Program-made: the position numbers and the translations under genes | Part shown: piece by piece, positions 13,595 through 23,496 of the stretch | Numbering within the stretch: the stretch's first letter is position 1 | Layout of the letters: every line of letters starts with the position of its first letter | Assembly: GCA_036375715.1 (NCBI GenBank) | Contig: DASVBS010000020.1 | Coordinates: forward strand, 1 to 48,552 | Reading direction: 5' to 3' | From: Longimicrobiaceae bacterium | GTDB lineage: Bacteria > Gemmatimonadota > Gemmatimonadetes > Longimicrobiales > Longimicrobiaceae | DNA length: 48,552 bases | Notes under the pieces: generated by a model | What the model saw: only the letters and a program-made list of their open reading frames with translations | The model's database searches: none | Told to the model about the DNA's origin: nothing

Positions 13595-14260
13595 TCAACT
13601 CTTCCCCATCCTCCGCTTCAGCTCCTGCAGCCGGGCCTCAACCTCCTCGGCTGACGGGGCCGAGCTGCCGGGATGCGGAGGAGTGTCATCGAGGTCTTCC
13701 AGCGCCTCGGCGTACGCGCTGTTGCCGCCGACCTTCTCGGCCATCCGCTCCCACTCGTCGAAAGAGCGCGCGGCGTCATCCGCGACAGAGCGGATCCGCT
13801 CCCCCGCGTAAGCTCGACGTAGCCGAGCGACGAGCTCGTAGCGGTTCGCCTCCGCCTCCTGGTACTGGCGCTTCATGTCCTCGGCTTCCTTGCGACGGAG
13901 GGCCAGCTCCGCCTCGGTGGCCGATATCTTCTGCTCCAGTACCACGATGCGCTCGCGGTGGCGGGTCGCGAACTCCTCCGCGACCCGTACCGTCTCCGCG
14001 TCGTTGATACGGCTGGCCAGCTGGCCACGCCGCTCCGTCCGCTCCAGCTCCTCCCGCTCGCTCACCAGCCGCGCGCGCATGCGCTCCAGATCCTCCTCCA
14101 GACGGGGAATGAGCGCGCGCGCCTCCACCAGCTCCCGCCGCATGGAGCTGAGCAGGTGGGCGACCTCGTCCTCGGGCTCACGCTTGTTGAGCTCGGCACG
14201 GAAGGCCGCGAGGCTCTCCTTGAACAGCTTCTGGAGGTCTTCGAACATGGCCACGAACAT
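13595..14260 (-). CDS. PspA/IM30-family coiled-coil protein
   Basis: A 221-residue helical protein, likely a membrane-associated phage-shock/ESCRT-III-like protein that stabilises stressed membranes. It starts with an amphipathic stretch (FEDLQKLFKESLAAF), as PspA proteins do, and continues with long charged heptad coiled coil to about residue 160. A shorter C-terminal part has Pro/Ser and a final helix VEARLQELKRRMG. The start may be Met1 (14260) or Met5 (14248); neither has a strong ribosome site. There is no pspB/pspC or activator next to it. The gene is divergent from the nucleotidyltransferase at 14375. Similarity is at fold and pattern level, so a generic coiled-coil protein remains possible. 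Confidence 0.75.
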   Translation of the reverse strand: MFVAMFEDLQKLFKESLAAFRAELNKREPEDEVAHLLSSMRRELVEARALIPRLEEDLERMRARLVSEREELERTERRGQLASRINDAETVRVAEEFATRHRERIVVLEQKISATEAELALRRKEAEDMKRQYQEAEANRYELVARLRRAYAGERIRSVADDAARSFDEWERMAEKVGGNSAYAEALEDLDDTPPHPGSSAPSAEEVEARLQELKRRMGKS

Positions 14261-17237: not shown

Positions 17238-18293
17238 TCAGCTCGCCTCCTCGTCCGCCTTCCCCACCCCGCGCAGCAGGTCGGGCGGAGGGAGCCCGTG
17301 CTCGCCCCCCTCCATCGCTCCCGCCATGGAGGATTGGCTGTCGTGCAGCCCGCCCCCCGGCTCGCCCCGGCGATGCACCCGGTAGGTGGGATGGGCGAGC
17401 TCCACCGAGGGCTCCGCCGCGAAGGCCGCGAGGATTCGACGGCTGACCAGGTCGACCGTACCGCGATGTCGGCGCACGGCAGTCAGGAAGCGCAGCGTCA
17501 GCTCGATACCGGTGCCGGAGATGGTGATGTACACGATCGGCGTCAAGGTACCGTACTTGAAGGCGTAACGCTGCTCCAGCCGGCGAAAGCCAGCCTCCAG
17601 CTCCGGCCCGAGCTCCTGATGGACCTCATCGCCGATCTCCCGCATCAGCTCCTCGGCGCGCCTCCAGTCGCTCTCGAAGGTGATGGTCACGCGCACCTCC
17701 TGCCACGCCCATGGATTCTCGGCACCCTGGAAGTGCACCTGGTCGGAGAGCAGACGATAGTTGGGGATGGAGACCAGCCGGCCGCTCGACTGGCGGCCGT
17801 AGACGATCGTCCCCACTTCCAGCACGGTGGTCTTGAGCACGCCGATGTCGACCACATCGCCCAGCACGCCGTTTACTTCGATGCGACTGCCCACGTCGAT
17901 CCCCGATCGACCGGAGATGTACAGCCAGCCGACCACGGACTTCAGCACGTCCTGCAAGGCGACCGCAATTCCGGCCAGCAGCACCGCGAGGACCGTCCCC
18001 AGGCCTTGCAGTGAATCCGCAAAGAGGGCGACGCCGCAGACGACGAGCAGGAAGGCAGCGGCGTAGCTGCTCCACTTCTGCAGGATGTGCCGACGGTTGA
18101 TGTCCTCGATGTTCTCGCGGATGAGGCGGCGGATCAGGCGGGTCACGGCGTAAACCACGACCACCATCACCACGAACGCCACCAGCTTCTCGCCGAGATC
18201 GTGCAGGTATAGGTCCCGCCAGCGCTCGAGGGTCTGCGGGAGGGGGAGGGCCACGCTGTCGGGCTGCGGGATTGGTAAGGTCCCCTGGATCAT
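17238..18293 (-). CDS. MscS-family mechanosensitive channel
   Basis: Inner-membrane channel of the MscS superfamily, 351 residues. Three hydrophobic segments lie at about 37-52, 76-92 and 97-117; the third is the Gly/Ala-rich pore helix (GLGTVLAVLLAGIAVALQD). The conserved beta-domain follows (IEVNGVLGDVVDIGVLKTTV, IPNYRLLSD), then an alpha/beta C-terminal domain. About 35 C-terminal residues (RRGEPGGGLHDSQSS onward) are variable. A conductance role in osmotic down-shock is usual for the family, though small MscS proteins vary widely. It lies 38 bases after the DUF4390 gene and three before topoisomerase IB. Confidence 0.93.
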   Translation of the reverse strand: MIQGTLPIPQPDSVALPLPQTLERWRDLYLHDLGEKLVAFVVMVVVVYAVTRLIRRLIRENIEDINRRHILQKWSSYAAAFLLVVCGVALFADSLQGLGTVLAVLLAGIAVALQDVLKSVVGWLYISGRSGIDVGSRIEVNGVLGDVVDIGVLKTTVLEVGTIVYGRQSSGRLVSIPNYRLLSDQVHFQGAENPWAWQEVRVTITFESDWRRAEELMREIGDEVHQELGPELEAGFRRLEQRYAFKYGTLTPIVYITISGTGIELTLRFLTAVRRHRGTVDLVSRRILAAFAAEPSVELAHPTYRVHRRGEPGGGLHDSQSSMAGAMEGGEHGLPPPDLLRGVGKADEEAS

Positions 18294-18331: not shown

Positions 18332-18970
18332 TCAGCGCACGGTGAAGGTGCCGCTACGGGCCTCGAGGCGCCGGGTGGGAAGCCCGATCACGCGCACCAG
18401 CAGTCGACGGAGGCCGCTCTCCACCGCGCTCTCAGGCGAGGCGCGCCCCTCCACCGCCGGACCCACGTCGCCTTGCAGCCACCGTCGCAACTCCTCGAGG
18501 TCGGAGAGCGACAACGTCTCCACCTCCAGGCGCGCAAGGTAGTAGAATCGGCCCCTTCGTGGGGGTCGGAGATTGACGCGAAGTTGTGCCCCTACGGCGG
18601 CTTCCGCCTGACTCAGGGTGGCAAAATGACGCTCACCGTTCGGTGCGGTGAGGCTGTAGGTTCGGTCGAGGGGATCCTGGGTCAGGGCGAACGCAACCTC
18701 CTGCTCCCCCGCTAGCCGATCGAAGAAGCGATTCTCCCACAGCTCCACTCGCAGGCGAAAACGTAGCGGGAGGCCGGACTCGAGCGCGCGGCGGAGCGCG
18801 GGATCCCTCAGCAGCCCGACCGCATCGATCACGGGCACGTAACCCTGCTCGGGCGGCGCCTGCCGGATCTGCAGCCGCGCGGTGGCCTGCGCGGCGGCGT
18901 ACGAGGTGAGGCAGAGGAGGGCCAGCGCGAGGCCGAAGAGAACCCTACCGGCCCGGTGGAGAGCGATCAA
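18332..18970 (-). CDS. DUF4390-type exported protein
   Basis: A 212-residue protein with an N-terminal signal segment (LFGLALALLCLTSYAAAQA). Its body fits the DUF4390 pattern: an alternating beta region with ALESGLPLRFRLRVELWENRFFDR, a DRTYSLTAPNGERHFATLSQAE stretch and a C-terminal helix-rich part. In proteobacteria DUF4390 genes commonly sit next to an NtrY/NtrX-type kinase and regulator, and the same association holds here, which strengthens the call. Its ATG overlaps the stop of the barrel protein by four bases (ATGA), implying coupled translation and a shared envelope role. Molecular function is unknown. Confidence 0.75.
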   Translation of the reverse strand: MIALHRAGRVLFGLALALLCLTSYAAAQATARLQIRQAPPEQGYVPVIDAVGLLRDPALRRALESGLPLRFRLRVELWENRFFDRLAGEQEVAFALTQDPLDRTYSLTAPNGERHFATLSQAEAAVGAQLRVNLRPPRRGRFYYLARLEVETLSLSDLEELRRWLQGDVGPAVEGRASPESAVESGLRRLLVRVIGLPTRRLEARSGTFTVR

Positions 18971-20727
18971 AAGCGCGGGCCGAGTCGGATGAACGCATTC
19001 AGACCGCCCGAGCCGGATAGCGGCAACGCCACGAACGCCCCGACGCGGCCGATCATCAGTCCCGCCCCGACGTCGACGGAGAGAGGCTCATCCGTGCTGC
19101 TGTCCAGATTCCAGCCCCGCCCCGCGTCGACGAAGACGATCCAGTCGGGTGCGAACTCCCAGGTGGGCTCCGCGGCGACCCCGACTTCCTCATCGTCGTC
19201 GTCCATCCACGGCGCCGAATCCCAGCGCATGCGGAAGGTGAAGCGGCCGCGGTACTCCGCCTGGAAGAGGGCAAAGGCATCGCATCCGTAACGCGGGAAG
19301 TAGGCGGCAGCCTCGGGATCGTCCACGTCGGCCAGGGAACGATGCACCGTGCGCGACCGCGCGCCGCAATCCAGGCTGAACAGGTCATATCCCGGAAGCG
19401 TGCCCTCGCCCCCCATGGCATGCTGGTATTGCGGCGGCAGCGGCTCGCCGCTCAGCGAGCCGCCGAGCAGAAGTCGAAAGTTCAGGCGGGAGCGCGGGTC
19501 CACCCGATTGTACCGACGGATGTCGATGAAGCCGGCGGAGAACCGGCCAAAGCTTTCGCCCGCGTCGACCAGCAGATTGGGCCCCTCGGGCTCCGGTCCT
19601 TCAGGCGCGAAGGATTCCGGGTAGATCAGGTCCCCGGTCAGCCCCTGATCGATATGGCCGCGCAGGTACCAGCCGGTGGATGGCTCGAGCGGATCGCTGC
19701 GGGTATCGAAGGCGCCGGAGAGGCGTGCAATCGTGACCTTTCCCTCTCCGACCAGCGGCTCGGGGCGCCACTCCTCGGCGTTACGGAAGATGGACCAGGG
19801 GCTTCCGGAGGCAAGCGACCGATGGCGCTCGTAGCGAAGCGCTGCAGTGAGGGAGAAGGGTGTCCGGTCGCTGCTCCAGGTCGTGAACAGGCTCACGCCC
19901 TCACGCTCGAAATGGTCTCGGAAGTCCCGGTGCAGAAAGAAGGTGGAGAGTCCGCTCTCCAGGTCGGTCATCTGCCAGGCCTCGATCGGCTCCACCAGCG
20001 AGTGGGCGGTCGCTCCGATACGCAGCTCCTGTCGCCCGCCTAGGAACTGCTCCGCCTGGACGTAATAGCCCAGGTCGTCGGTGTCGATGCGGATCCCCGT
20101 TTCGGTGCGGTAGATGGCCAGGGCGTGCACGCGCAGCGGGTTCGATCCCTCGGTCCGCACCCTTGGACCGAAGGTGATCGGCAGCCCCTCCACGCGGTTG
20201 TAGCTATCCCCGGTCGCGATCAGAAAGTCGCTCCGCCCCCACTCGAACGCATTGGAGAAGCCAATTCCCCCTCGGGGACGCTCGGCGCGGACCAGATCAC
20301 CGTTGCTGCGGCGGTACCGGAGCCTCTCCGCGTACGTGGTGACTGCACCACTGATCGTCGCGTTCTCGAGACCGCCGACCCGTCCTCCCACGACCGTCAC
20401 ATTCCCACCCACCGACGCTCCCTGCTCCAGCTGCAGGTCACCGTTCACCACGAGCACGTCTCCGGTGATCCGACCCGCCAACGTCAAGGGTCCCTCCAGC
20501 ACGGATACACTTCCCACAATGGTATCGCCGGCGGACACGGTGGCCGTGCCGATCAAGCGCAGGCGGAGGGGGTCGTTGAAGACGGCCACCACCGAGTCCG
20601 CCACCTGGTCGGGCAGCTCCAGCGTGCTGATGGAGTCTGCTCCGACCGGCTCGACGGGCTCCTGCGCTCGCAGGACAGCGGGGAGCAACAGCACGAGCGC
20701 GAGGCCAAGCGGCGCAACCTTCCGCAT
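18967..20727 (-). CDS. Bactofilin-like domain fused to outer-membrane beta-barrel
   Basis: A 586-residue exported protein. Signal peptide: MRKVAPLGLALVLLLPAVLRAQ. Residues about 55-130 form a run of short beta repeats of the polymer-forming/bactofilin type (GSVSVLEGPLTLAG, GDVLVVNGDLQLEQGASVGG, NVTVVGGRVGG). The rest is rich in alternating amphipathic strands with aromatic girdles and ends FIRLGPRF; a terminal Phe is the usual beta-barrel assembly signal. Motifs such as GGEGTLPGYDLFSLD and FVDAGRGW recall BamA/TamA surface-antigen barrels. ATG 20727 was chosen because it has GGAGG upstream and starts the signal peptide. It lies between the sigma-54 regulator and DUF4390. The ligand or cargo is unknown. 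Confidence 0.82.
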   Translation of the reverse strand: MRKVAPLGLALVLLLPAVLRAQEPVEPVGADSISTLELPDQVADSVVAVFNDPLRLRLIGTATVSAGDTIVGSVSVLEGPLTLAGRITGDVLVVNGDLQLEQGASVGGNVTVVGGRVGGLENATISGAVTTYAERLRYRRSNGDLVRAERPRGGIGFSNAFEWGRSDFLIATGDSYNRVEGLPITFGPRVRTEGSNPLRVHALAIYRTETGIRIDTDDLGYYVQAEQFLGGRQELRIGATAHSLVEPIEAWQMTDLESGLSTFFLHRDFRDHFEREGVSLFTTWSSDRTPFSLTAALRYERHRSLASGSPWSIFRNAEEWRPEPLVGEGKVTIARLSGAFDTRSDPLEPSTGWYLRGHIDQGLTGDLIYPESFAPEGPEPEGPNLLVDAGESFGRFSAGFIDIRRYNRVDPRSRLNFRLLLGGSLSGEPLPPQYQHAMGGEGTLPGYDLFSLDCGARSRTVHRSLADVDDPEAAAYFPRYGCDAFALFQAEYRGRFTFRMRWDSAPWMDDDDEEVGVAAEPTWEFAPDWIVFVDAGRGWNLDSSTDEPLSVDVGAGLMIGRVGAFVALPLSGSGGLNAFIRLGPRF

Positions 20728-20885
20728 ACGGCCTCCAGAATGGGGTACGAGGCGGGACAACCGCCCGCCCGGGTGGGCACGCCCCATGCCGGGCGACCTG
20801 CGATCGCAAGCCCTTGTCGATACCATATTTGCATCTGCCAAAGGAAGGGTCCGTGCTTCCTCCGCGTGTCGATGGGACACGGAAC

Positions 20886-22247
20886 TTAGCGGTCGATCCG
20901 GAGTCTGCGCATCCTGCGATAGAGGTTACCGCGGTCGGTGTGGAGCTGGCGGGCCGCCTCGGCGACGTTCCCCCCGGCGCGATCGAGGGCGCGCTGGATC
21001 ACCTGCCGTTCGAAGGCGTCGAGCCTGTCGGTGAGGCTCAGAGACTCGTCGTCCGCGTACCCCGCACCATCCGACGAGGTCGTGGGGCTCGGGTCCAGGA
21101 GAGCACGCACCTCGTCCGCGCCGACTTCGGCTCCGGAATGAAGAATGGTGAGCCGCTCGACAATGTTGGCAAGCTCGCGAACGTTCCCCGGCCAAGAGTG
21201 ACGCTGCAGGGCGTTCAGCGCAGCGGGAGTGAGGCGAGGAGGGCGCAGGGCTATGCGGCTTCGCTGGCGCTCGAGCAGATGGCTCACGAGCTCCGGGACA
21301 TCCTCGCGCCGTTCCCGCAGGGGCGGTAGGTGAAGGGGGATGACGTGCAGGCGGAAAAAGAGGTCTTCCCGGAAGCGTCCGGCAGCCACGTCCGCCCGCA
21401 GATCGCGGTTGGTGGCGGCGAGCGTACGGACGTCGACGCGCAGCGGTGTGCTCCCTCCCACCCGCTCGAACTCGCCCGTCTCGAGCACCCGCAGTAGCTT
21501 CGCCTGCGCCTCGGCTCCGAGATCCCCCACCTCGTCCAGCAGGAGGGTCCCACCGTCGGCGAGCTCGAAACGACCGCGTCGGCGCTCCGTAGCGCCGGTG
21601 AACGCCCCCCGCTCGTGCCCGAAGAGCTCCGACTCCACCAGGTCCCGCGGGATGGCGGCGCAGTTGACGCGGATGAAAGGCTTTGCTGCCCGCGGGCTGA
21701 GTCGATGGATAGCGGACGCCGCCAGCTCCTTGCCGGTCCCGCTTTCCCCGGTGATGAGCACCCGAGCATCGGTTGCGGCCACCCGCTCGATCAGCTCGCG
21801 TACTTGCTGCATCGTCTCGCTGCTGCCCACCAGCTCGTCGTCCGCACCGAGCTCCTCGCGCAGGGCCTCGTTCAGCGCCCTCGCCTGGCGCAGCTCCAGC
21901 GCCGAGCGGACCGTCAACAGCAAGGCGTCGGGCGAGAGCGGCTTCTCCAGAAAGTGGAAGGCCCCGAGCTTGGTGGCGCGCACGGCGTCCGAGAGCGAGG
22001 CCTTGCCGCTCATCATGATAATGGGCAGGTCGGGTGCCGCCGATCTCAGGTCAGGGAGTGTCTCCAGCCCTGTCCCGCCGGGCATCACCAGATCCAGGAG
22101 CATCACGTCCGGCGCTTCGGCCTGAACTGCCGCCAGCCCCGCCCTCCCGGAATCCGCCTCCCGCACGACGTACCCCTCCGCCCGCAGCACGCTGGCGATC
22201 ATCCGCCGCAGGTTCGCTTCGTCGTCGACGATCAGGATGGAGGGCAT
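20886..22247 (-). CDS. Sigma-54-dependent response regulator (NtrC/NtrX type)
   Basis: 453-residue transcription activator. REC: Asp8/Asp9, phospho-acceptor Asp52 (LLDLVMPG) and KPLSP lysine. The AAA+ domain has Walker A GESGTGKE, the sigma-54 contact loop intact in ELFGHERGAFTGA, Walker B LLLDEVGD and the arginine-finger region FREDLFFRL. The Fis-type helix-turn-helix ends the protein (AEAARQLHTDRGNLYRRMRR). MPSILIVDDE at 22247 is the natural REC start; upstream in-frame codons overlap the kinase gene. It lies ten bases after the kinase stop, so the two form one operon. The likely targets include the envelope genes downstream, but no -24/-12 promoter was confirmed. Confidence 0.95.
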   Translation of the reverse strand: MPSILIVDDEANLRRMIASVLRAEGYVVREADSGRAGLAAVQAEAPDVMLLDLVMPGGTGLETLPDLRSAAPDLPIIMMSGKASLSDAVRATKLGAFHFLEKPLSPDALLLTVRSALELRQARALNEALREELGADDELVGSSETMQQVRELIERVAATDARVLITGESGTGKELAASAIHRLSPRAAKPFIRVNCAAIPRDLVESELFGHERGAFTGATERRRGRFELADGGTLLLDEVGDLGAEAQAKLLRVLETGEFERVGGSTPLRVDVRTLAATNRDLRADVAAGRFREDLFFRLHVIPLHLPPLRERREDVPELVSHLLERQRSRIALRPPRLTPAALNALQRHSWPGNVRELANIVERLTILHSGAEVGADEVRALLDPSPTTSSDGAGYADDESLSLTDRLDAFERQVIQRALDRAGGNVAEAARQLHTDRGNLYRRMRRLRIDR

Positions 22248-22257
22248 TCTGAAGAAG

Positions 22258-23496
22258 CTAGAATCCGCGCCGCCGTTCTTCTCCCTTCTCACGACCCCGA
22301 ATCGGAATCTCCACCACAAACTCCGCCCCTCCCTCCGGCCGATTGCGCGCTTCGATCCACCCTCCGTGGGCCTGCACCGTCCGGCGCACGAGGGCGAGGC
22401 CGAGGCCAGTGCCCCGGGACTTGGTGGTGAAGTCCGGATCCCAGATGCGGTCGAGCTGCTCCTCCGGAATCCCTGGCCCCGTGTCCATCACCCGCACGCT
22501 CACGATGCCGTTGTCGCTGGAGAGGGCGACGCTCACCCGCCCGGGTCCGCCGCCCAGCGCCTCCACCGAGTTCAGCAGCAGGTTCGCGAAGGCGCGGGAC
22601 AGCGCGTCGTGATGGGCCTGCACTCGGGGAATGTCGGGCGGGGCCATCAGCTCGTGATCGATCTCTGAGGGCAGATGGGTGCGTAGCAAATAGTCGAGCT
22701 GCTCGACCAGGTCCACCTCGCTGGTCGGCCCCTCCGGAAGGTGGCCGAAGTGCGTGAAGGTTCGGGCCAGCTCCTCGAGGCGAGCCGATTCCGCGGTAGC
22801 CACCTCGAGCGGCTCTCGGAGCGCTGGCTCGTCCGCCGCCCCGCGCTCGATGGCGCGCAGAGCGAGCTGGAGCGGCGTGAGAGAGTTCTTCAACTCGTGC
22901 GCGACGCTGCGCGCCATGGTGACCCAGGTGCGCGCGCGCTCCGCCTCCAACGCCCGGGCGCGGGAGAGCTTCAGCTCCTCCACCATGTTCCGGAAGGCAT
23001 CCCGCAGCACCGCGAACTCACCCGGAGCGTCGCTTCCTGAAGCCGGGGGTGGCAGCGGCTCCTCCCGAGCGACCAGCTGTGACCAGCCGACCAGCTCTCG
23101 GATCGGACGGGAGAGCAGGCGCGCCATGCGACGCGAGGAGCGGAGGGCGAGCAGGACCAGCAGAACGGCGAAGAGGAACGCCACCACCGGAATGATCCGC
23201 AGCACGCGGGCGTTCAGGTAATCCCACAGCCGGGACTGCTGCAATGAGAAATCGAGCACCGCCCGATGCTCGCTCGCCGCCTCCGCCAGCGCCGGGTCGC
23301 CGCTCGACTCCGCCAGGTCGAGAAGCCGCTGGCCGCTGGCCCGCACCTGCTCCCACGCCGCCGGCGACGTGTGCAGCTCCACTACCTGCGAAAGTACGTA
23401 CGTCCCCAACCCCAGCAGGATCAGCGAGGGGAGTAGCGAGAAGAGCAGCAGCGCCAGCAGCAGCCGGCGCTCGAACGAGCCGCGAGGGGAAGGCAC
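22258..23496 (-). CDS. NtrY-like membrane histidine kinase
   Basis: 412-residue inner-membrane sensor kinase. Transmembrane segments lie at about 12-34 and 101-118, bracketing a small periplasmic domain of about 65 residues. A HAMP-like linker (RPIRELVGWSQLVARE) follows. HisKA has the H-box RSVAHELKNSLTPLQL (His200), and HATPase_c shows N (LLNSVEAL), G1 (DTGPGIPEEQ) and G2 (GTGLGLALVRR). The HELKNSLTP wording is typical of NtrY-type kinases paired with NtrX/NtrC regulators. Heptanucleotide array B starts 15 bases upstream of the start codon, so any promoter must lie within or beyond the array. Confidence 0.94.
   Translation of the reverse strand: MPSPRGSFERRLLLALLLFSLLPSLILLGLGTYVLSQVVELHTSPAAWEQVRASGQRLLDLAESSGDPALAEAASEHRAVLDFSLQQSRLWDYLNARVLRIIPVVAFLFAVLLVLLALRSSRRMARLLSRPIRELVGWSQLVAREEPLPPPASGSDAPGEFAVLRDAFRNMVEELKLSRARALEAERARTWVTMARSVAHELKNSLTPLQLALRAIERGAADEPALREPLEVATAESARLEELARTFTHFGHLPEGPTSEVDLVEQLDYLLRTHLPSEIDHELMAPPDIPRVQAHHDALSRAFANLLLNSVEALGGGPGRVSVALSSDNGIVSVRVMDTGPGIPEEQLDRIWDPDFTTKSRGTGLGLALVRRTVQAHGGWIEARNRPEGGAEFVVEIPIRGREKGEERRRGF

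Follow-up and report, generated by a model that had tools for sequence, protein, structure and literature searches.

The window analysed here is a stretch of 48,552 nucleotides from a Longimicrobiaceae bacterium (GenBank assembly GCA_036375715.1, contig DASVBS010000020.1, positions 1 to 48,552). The gene under study lies on the reverse (-) strand, as do all other features of the window described below, and encodes a protein in which a predicted bactofilin-like beta-solenoid precedes an outer-membrane barrel of the Omp85 fold. The coding sequence (18967..20727, 586 amino acids) is supported by an open reading frame check and by the model; it starts with ATG, and its product ends in Phe. The N-terminus, MRKVAPLGLALVLLLPAVLRAQ, resembles a signal peptide when judged by eye (residues 1-22, 20662..20727). 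In the AlphaFold2 model of the whole protein, built with 79 sequences (mean predicted local distance difference test, pLDDT, 88.8), a conserved helix (residues 40-50, 20578..20610) is followed by the solenoid, a linker, and a barrel that extends from residue 164 to the C-terminus. The solenoid (approximately residues 53-133, 20329..20571) was delimited from models, structure and profile comparison and a repeat scan. The barrel (residues 164-586, 18970..20238) was delimited from Pfam matches of relatives, the model and structure comparison. A long loop at the loop 6 position, between predicted strands 11 and 12 (residues 425-483, 19279..19455), was placed from the alignment and the model. The barrel has 16 predicted strands, counted by hand in the DSSP list of the model.

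Relatives of the protein were compared in two alignments. The smaller contains 25 members, the window protein and 24 of 29 other family members (L009, L014, L018, L020 and L023 were omitted; L004 is not a barrel); in it A21 and Q22 show little or no variation. The larger contains 79 members, the window protein and 78 of 80 loci; L041, which has no solenoid, and L046, which has no start on its contig, were omitted, so that this alignment and its counts lean towards solenoid-bearing members. The 80 loci come from named records, all of them Gemmatimonadota by title except one, titled Gammaproteobacteria. In addition, 150 genomes drawn from Gemmatimonadota were searched.

The N-terminal domain carries three copies of the pattern G.[VIL].[VIL]..G.[VIL], at residues 72, 89 and 108 (intervals of 17 and 19), and at least three copies occur in the shuffled mature protein at a frequency of 1.5e-4. 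Members of the 79-member domain alignment have one to four copies each. Across that alignment the V/I/L content is autocorrelated at lag 19 (permutation fraction 4e-4); the glycine autocorrelation at the same lag is weak (0.044). Modelled alone (residues 36-150), the domain forms a beta-solenoid of about four turns with three glycine-anchored repeats 17-19 residues apart, at a pLDDT of 95.7. The top three solved structures in VIA-align are all bactofilins. Two are from Thermus, 6rib (Z 8.8, 76 residues at 2.8 A) and 6ria (Z 8.5, 72 residues at 2.4 A), and the third is BacA of Caulobacter, 2n3d (Z 7.4, 78 residues at 3.1 A); a Z below 8 can reflect no more than a common arrangement. Next, at Z 7.1 and below, come ice-binding proteins (7.1 at most), MinC (about 5.5), acyltransferases (root-mean-square deviation about 11) and others. 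The first of these rows stands less than 1 Z from 2n3d, so the fold alone does not exclude other beta-solenoids.

Profile comparisons point in the same direction. At E<=0.1, PF04519, the bactofilin family, matches 16 of the 25 relatives and 38 of the 79 members, the best of the latter at 1.7e-6; a search with the domain profile retrieves 6ria (E 0.004). Aligned with HHalign to 26 bactofilin domains of the same phylum, the solenoid reached a probability of 95.7% and a score of 50; reversed controls scored 27.1 and 23.9, and 20 column-shuffled controls at most 15.3. A PF04519 search of the organism's own genome gave five matches, none of which is the window protein. Since the window protein falls below PF04519 detection, membership of the bactofilin family was rejected; the resemblance in fold was retained, and the domain is named bactofilin-like rather than bactofilin.

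The barrel is assigned to the Omp85 superfamily on fold and on the matches of its relatives. It aligns with SAM50, BamA and TamA at Z 21-22 in VIA-align, and the best Foldseek match is TamA (E 1.4e-9). PF01103 matches 22 of the 25 relatives and, at E<=0.1, 63 of the 79 members; no POTRA family matches any of the 79 members at that threshold. The terminal residue is F in 72 of the 79. The Omp85 loop-6 signature VRGF/Y carries an Arg. Here the loop 6 region contains LPGY at residues 444-447, and residue 445, which we take to be the position of that Arg, is P in 74 members, E in four, D in one and R in none (n=79); the Gly after it is retained in 76. C454 and C482, both in the loop 6 region, are present in all 79 members, and 77 have exactly two cysteines beyond residue 25. 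The same genome encodes one five-POTRA, BamA-like Omp85 protein and another Omp85 protein with two POTRA stretches; the separate five-POTRA protein rules out that the window barrel is the organism's BamA. Membership of the DUF5686 family (PF18939) was likewise rejected, as only 2 of the 79 members match, weakly (best 0.02). We class the protein as a new type of Omp85 barrel that carries a bactofilin-like solenoid in place of POTRA domains.

The initial annotation of this DNA had proposed a bactofilin-like repeat domain directly after a signal peptide, located in the periplasm and attached to an outer-membrane barrel with a terminal Phe. The exact repeat copies, the export-signal-like start fused to an outer-membrane barrel, and the Omp85 fold match of the AlphaFold2 barrel with its Phe terminus all bear this architecture out. 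It had also named a POTRA or carboxypeptidase-regulatory fold as the outcome that would speak against it; the domain is predicted to be a solenoid, both in the whole protein and in isolation, and either kind of N-terminus was rejected on this ground.

The barrel gene is part of a conserved gene set. Its stop overlaps by 4 nt the start of a DUF4390 (PlrP-family) gene (18332..18970; PF14334, E 2.7e-8). On the other side lies the gene of an NtrC/NtrX-type response regulator with a receiver domain, an AAA sigma-54 domain containing GAFTGA, and a Fis-type helix-turn-helix domain (20886..22247), preceded by that of a membrane histidine kinase with HAMP, HisKA and HATPase_c domains (22258..23496) whose periplasmic loop is short by eye. 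In the 80 loci the regulator is upstream of the barrel in 66 of 69 testable cases, DUF4390 is downstream in 69 of 70, and a kinase falls inside the interval that was tested in 47 of 59. In 56 of the 80 loci the strand of the barrel gene encodes GAFTGA; this count is not limited to the regulator gene and includes some loci without regulator in the denominator. The barrel is present in 96 of the 150 genomes at E <1e-70, a threshold set after seeing the gap between 2.4e-72 and 1.8e-41, and the identical 96 genomes have DUF4390. The two genes are adjacent, on the same strand and with DUF4390 downstream in 94 of the 96; in the remaining two they are on different contigs. PF14334, an independent model, matches 48 of the 150 genomes, every time inside the barrel-adjacent gene. 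Our verdict is that the barrel is part of a two-component envelope module, probably under sigma-54 control, and the conserved gene set points to an undescribed route of cell-envelope monitoring or maintenance. This neighbourhood, which the initial annotation does not mention, gives the stronger indication of function. The locus titled Gammaproteobacteria (L074, JAHEKL010000088.1) is a module in a metagenome-assembled genome, with 38% identity to the window protein; either the bin is mislabelled or the module was transferred.

A motif scan placed a sigma-54-type -24/-12 site, GGCATGGGGCGTGC, 63 nt before the barrel ATG (20777..20790), and RpoN is present in the genome. The published sigma-54 consensus is TGGCACN5-7TTGCT (PMC12316311). 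The gap between regulator and barrel measures 20-400 bp in 53 loci, the window included, and these loci fall into two groups. Among the 27 loci whose gap is 115 bp or longer, 19 have GG[CT]A[CT][GC]N4[CGT]TGC with the exact GG-N10-GC spacing typical of sigma-54 promoters, in most cases 47-73 nt upstream of the start codon; in 500 dinucleotide shuffles a mean of 0.22 and a maximum of two loci had the motif. With gaps of 20-115 bp it occurs in none of 26. In further loci the two genes overlap or nearly so. An earlier weight-matrix scan of 260 nt upstream had given scores of at least 12.5 in 18 of 79 members, with a shuffle mean of 2.0 and 9 on the reverse strand; the gap-restricted motif, chosen after seeing the sites of that scan, superseded it. 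On the simplest view, the barrel gene would be driven by the adjacent regulator via sigma-54 or, where no gap is present, by read-through.

The solenoid is not present in every orthologous barrel. In 14 of the 96 genomes the match starts only at the barrel; eight of these proteins (L192-L199) were read directly, and six rest on the start of the match. In the eight, and in a further one among the nearest relatives (G011), the signal-peptide-like start leads straight into the barrel, and all nine loci keep DUF4390 and the regulator, one of the regulator genes being cut by a contig end. The solenoid is therefore accessory. Because G011 and the solenoid-bearing G008 fall into one genus group, the domain was probably lost more than once. 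Three genomes in which the barrel match is split over two frames (G115:C24, G119:C141, G086:C63) were not counted as solenoid-less; these are either sequencing errors or decayed genes.

The solenoid domain is also more widespread than the module. Its profile matches 135 of the 150 genomes and, in line with the survey proposed in the initial annotation, the domain was found not only on the module barrel but also in a second, diverged family of barrels and in proteins where 5-7 hydrophobic segments follow it (11 of 18 proteins examined). The window genome has one second-family barrel and one multi-segment solenoid protein. The former (G000:C45:64171-65379; L116, L172:13896-15392) has a domain match of E 3.1e-12 and a barrel match of E 5.1e-18; the family matches DUF5686 weakly (0.0044). 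The genes around it, for GATase, CTP synthase and DAHP synthase, are metabolic and gave no lead. The latter (G000:C60:217000-220500, L126), like L117-L120 and L123-L125, consists of an exported solenoid and then several hydrophobic segments; no Pfam family was found for L126 or L188. A periplasmic solenoid held in the inner membrane in this way would lie opposite the one borne by the barrel.

Two further genes of the window were noted. A MscS-type channel gene (17238-18293) adjoins the DUF4390 gene; of the 80 loci, L039 alone has a match, and the gene is thus outside the conserved module. A possible envelope-stress protein is encoded at 13595-14245, with a weak PspA/IM30-like match under the cut-off (E 0.0091).

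The preferred explanation, to which we assign a probability of roughly one half, is that the solenoid-bearing Omp85 barrel is both output and partner of an NtrYX-like system, its level being set by the state of the envelope. In this scheme the kinase would sense an envelope condition, and the NtrC-type regulator would activate sigma-54 RNA polymerase at the promoter before the barrel gene; at loci without a gap, the barrel would be read through from the regulator gene. The barrel would be produced together with the periplasmic DUF4390 protein, which may feed back on the kinase as proposed for PlrP on PlrS in Bordetella. The barrel itself would be a structural or accessory component of the outer membrane and most likely not a classic insertase, and the solenoid may be an accessory docking domain for the wall or for periplasmic partners.

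Several points weigh against this explanation. Regarding the protein, no Pfam family matches it at E<=10, and single-protein searches of Pfam, NCBIfam and the PDB gave no useful match; in the search of its own genome it reaches only E 0.018, under the Omp85 cut-off. Foldseek gives the solenoid no match at E<=0.001, 6ria ranking 30th at E 0.81, and the reversed HHalign controls reach probabilities of 21-44%, so part of the bactofilin score reflects the glycine/valine composition of a solenoid. Regarding the module, in the three loci that failed the regulator test (L065, L069, L075) the barrel lies outside it; by record title, the isolates of L069 and L075 also have an in-module copy (L057, L059). 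The DUF4390 profile behind the co-occurrence was built from barrel-adjacent genes (29 of the 72 DUF4390 genes found), and the genomes are related, so that 96 of 96 does not represent 96 independent events. Regarding the signalling, PlrP is thought to act via the PDC domain of PlrS (PMC13001219), and the window kinase has no PDC family in Pfam at E<=0.01; the feedback of DUF4390 may accordingly differ from that of PlrP. Regarding the promoter, the reverse strand carries the motif in 4 of the 27 loci, and the form of the motif was loosened after inspecting the sequences, which weakens the contrast between the gap groups but does not explain it.

Four other explanations were considered. An elaboration of the same module, which we regard as unlikely, is a four-part relay across the envelope in which the barrel would sense the state of the outer membrane, DUF4390, translationally coupled to it, would set the kinase/phosphatase balance of the NtrYX-type kinase, and the kinase would set the amount of barrel via sigma-54; the solenoid would then be a periplasmic arm that, in most lineages, reaches wall or inner-membrane partners, possibly the solenoid-bearing inner-membrane proteins. 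Alternatively, the protein could be an accessory insertase or translocase that serves certain outer-membrane proteins, its solenoid taking over POTRA-type binding of substrates or partners. The Omp85 fold with 16 strands counts in favour of such a role, characterised Omp85 members generally assemble or translocate (PMC4104836, PMC11116518), and PMC4104836 proposes the same role for barrels without N-terminal domains. We nevertheless give this role a low probability: the position of the loop-6 Arg is occupied by Pro in nearly all members and by Arg in none, the genome already has a BamA-like protein and a second POTRA-bearing Omp85 protein, and tight coupling to one signalling module and DUF4390 would be unusual for a general insertase. 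Given the lost Arg and the separate BamA-like protein, insertion is less likely than a structural or signalling role.

The bactofilin-like fold, and the occurrence of the domain on a second barrel family and on multi-segment proteins, would also fit a periplasmic clustering scaffold in which solenoids associate with one another and so cluster barrels or, together with inner-membrane solenoid proteins, bridge both membranes. This reading, which extends the suggestion of the initial annotation that self-association could cluster barrels or link them to the wall, is considered quite unlikely. With 14 of 96 orthologous barrels lacking the solenoid and the neighbours retained at 9 of 9 fetched solenoid-less loci, clustering by the solenoid cannot be the core function. 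End-to-end polymerisation like that of bactofilins, which polymerise independently of nucleotides, is moreover doubtful, judging from the order along the chain: the solenoid is short, with a conserved helix on one side and the barrel directly on the other, and both polymer ends may be occupied. Least probable is a pore or porin. Porins are commonly regulated by two-component systems, which counts for this view, and the long loop 6, held by the invariant cysteine pair, could shape a pore; the fold, however, is that of Omp85 and not of a porin, and the complete co-occurrence with DUF4390 would be unexpected for a simple porin.

Compared with known systems, the window family shares the 16-strand Omp85-fold barrel common to BamA, TamA, Sam50, the noNterm proteins and the patatin-like PlpD. 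It differs from them by the absence of POTRA domains, by the solenoid, and by the replacement of the loop-6 Arg by Pro; the POTRA domains expected of Omp85 proteins, with exceptions such as noNterm, are missing from it. Ten Omp85 subfamilies were distinguished in the 2014 survey of the superfamily (PMC4104836), the main text of which contains neither the word 'bactofilin' nor 'Gemmatimon'. The match to DUF5686 barrels (PF18939) is far under the family cut-off. DUF5686 proteins carry a carboxypeptidase-regulatory N-terminal domain, which is absent from the window family. With bactofilins (PF04519; BacA, Thermus Bac), which provide the nearest solved structures, the N-terminal domain probably shares a right-handed beta-solenoid, as predicted, with repeats of 17-19 residues. 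Bactofilins are cytoplasmic, lack an export signal and are flanked by disordered tails, whereas the window domain is shorter, is flanked by a helix and an outer-membrane barrel, and follows a start judged by eye to be signal-peptide-like and thus exported. No description of a fusion between a bactofilin domain and an Omp85 barrel was found in the literature searched, which did not cover subscription papers. If the present assignment is correct, it adds an Omp85 subfamily with a cytoskeletal-type solenoid in place of POTRA domains, and a bactofilin-like fold is in use in the periplasm.

The closest signalling counterpart is the PlrP-PlrS-PlrR/NtrYX system, in which a histidine kinase, an NtrC-family regulator and a DUF4390 gene are likewise clustered (PMC13001219). 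According to that report DUF4390 corresponds to the PlrP family, whose members act in the periplasm as a third component of NtrYX systems, and plrP homologues are nearly always located with plrS; genetic evidence, available for Bordetella only, indicates that Bordetella PlrP limits the phosphatase activity of PlrS, probably via the PDC domain. Control of the cell envelope by NtrYX has been reported (PMC7240162). The gene order differs; here the barrel gene is placed between the regulator and DUF4390, and the window regulator keeps an AAA domain with GAFTGA, whereas beta-proteobacterial NtrX is without an AAA domain (PMC13001219). The words 'outer membrane' and 'Gemmatimon' are absent from the main text of PMC13001219. 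The recently proposed DUF4390/NtrYX signalling unit would, if the preferred explanation holds, gain an outer-membrane partner, and this raises a testable question, namely whether DUF4390 informs the kinase of the condition of an outer-membrane barrel. The natural orthologues with and without the solenoid permit a direct comparison.

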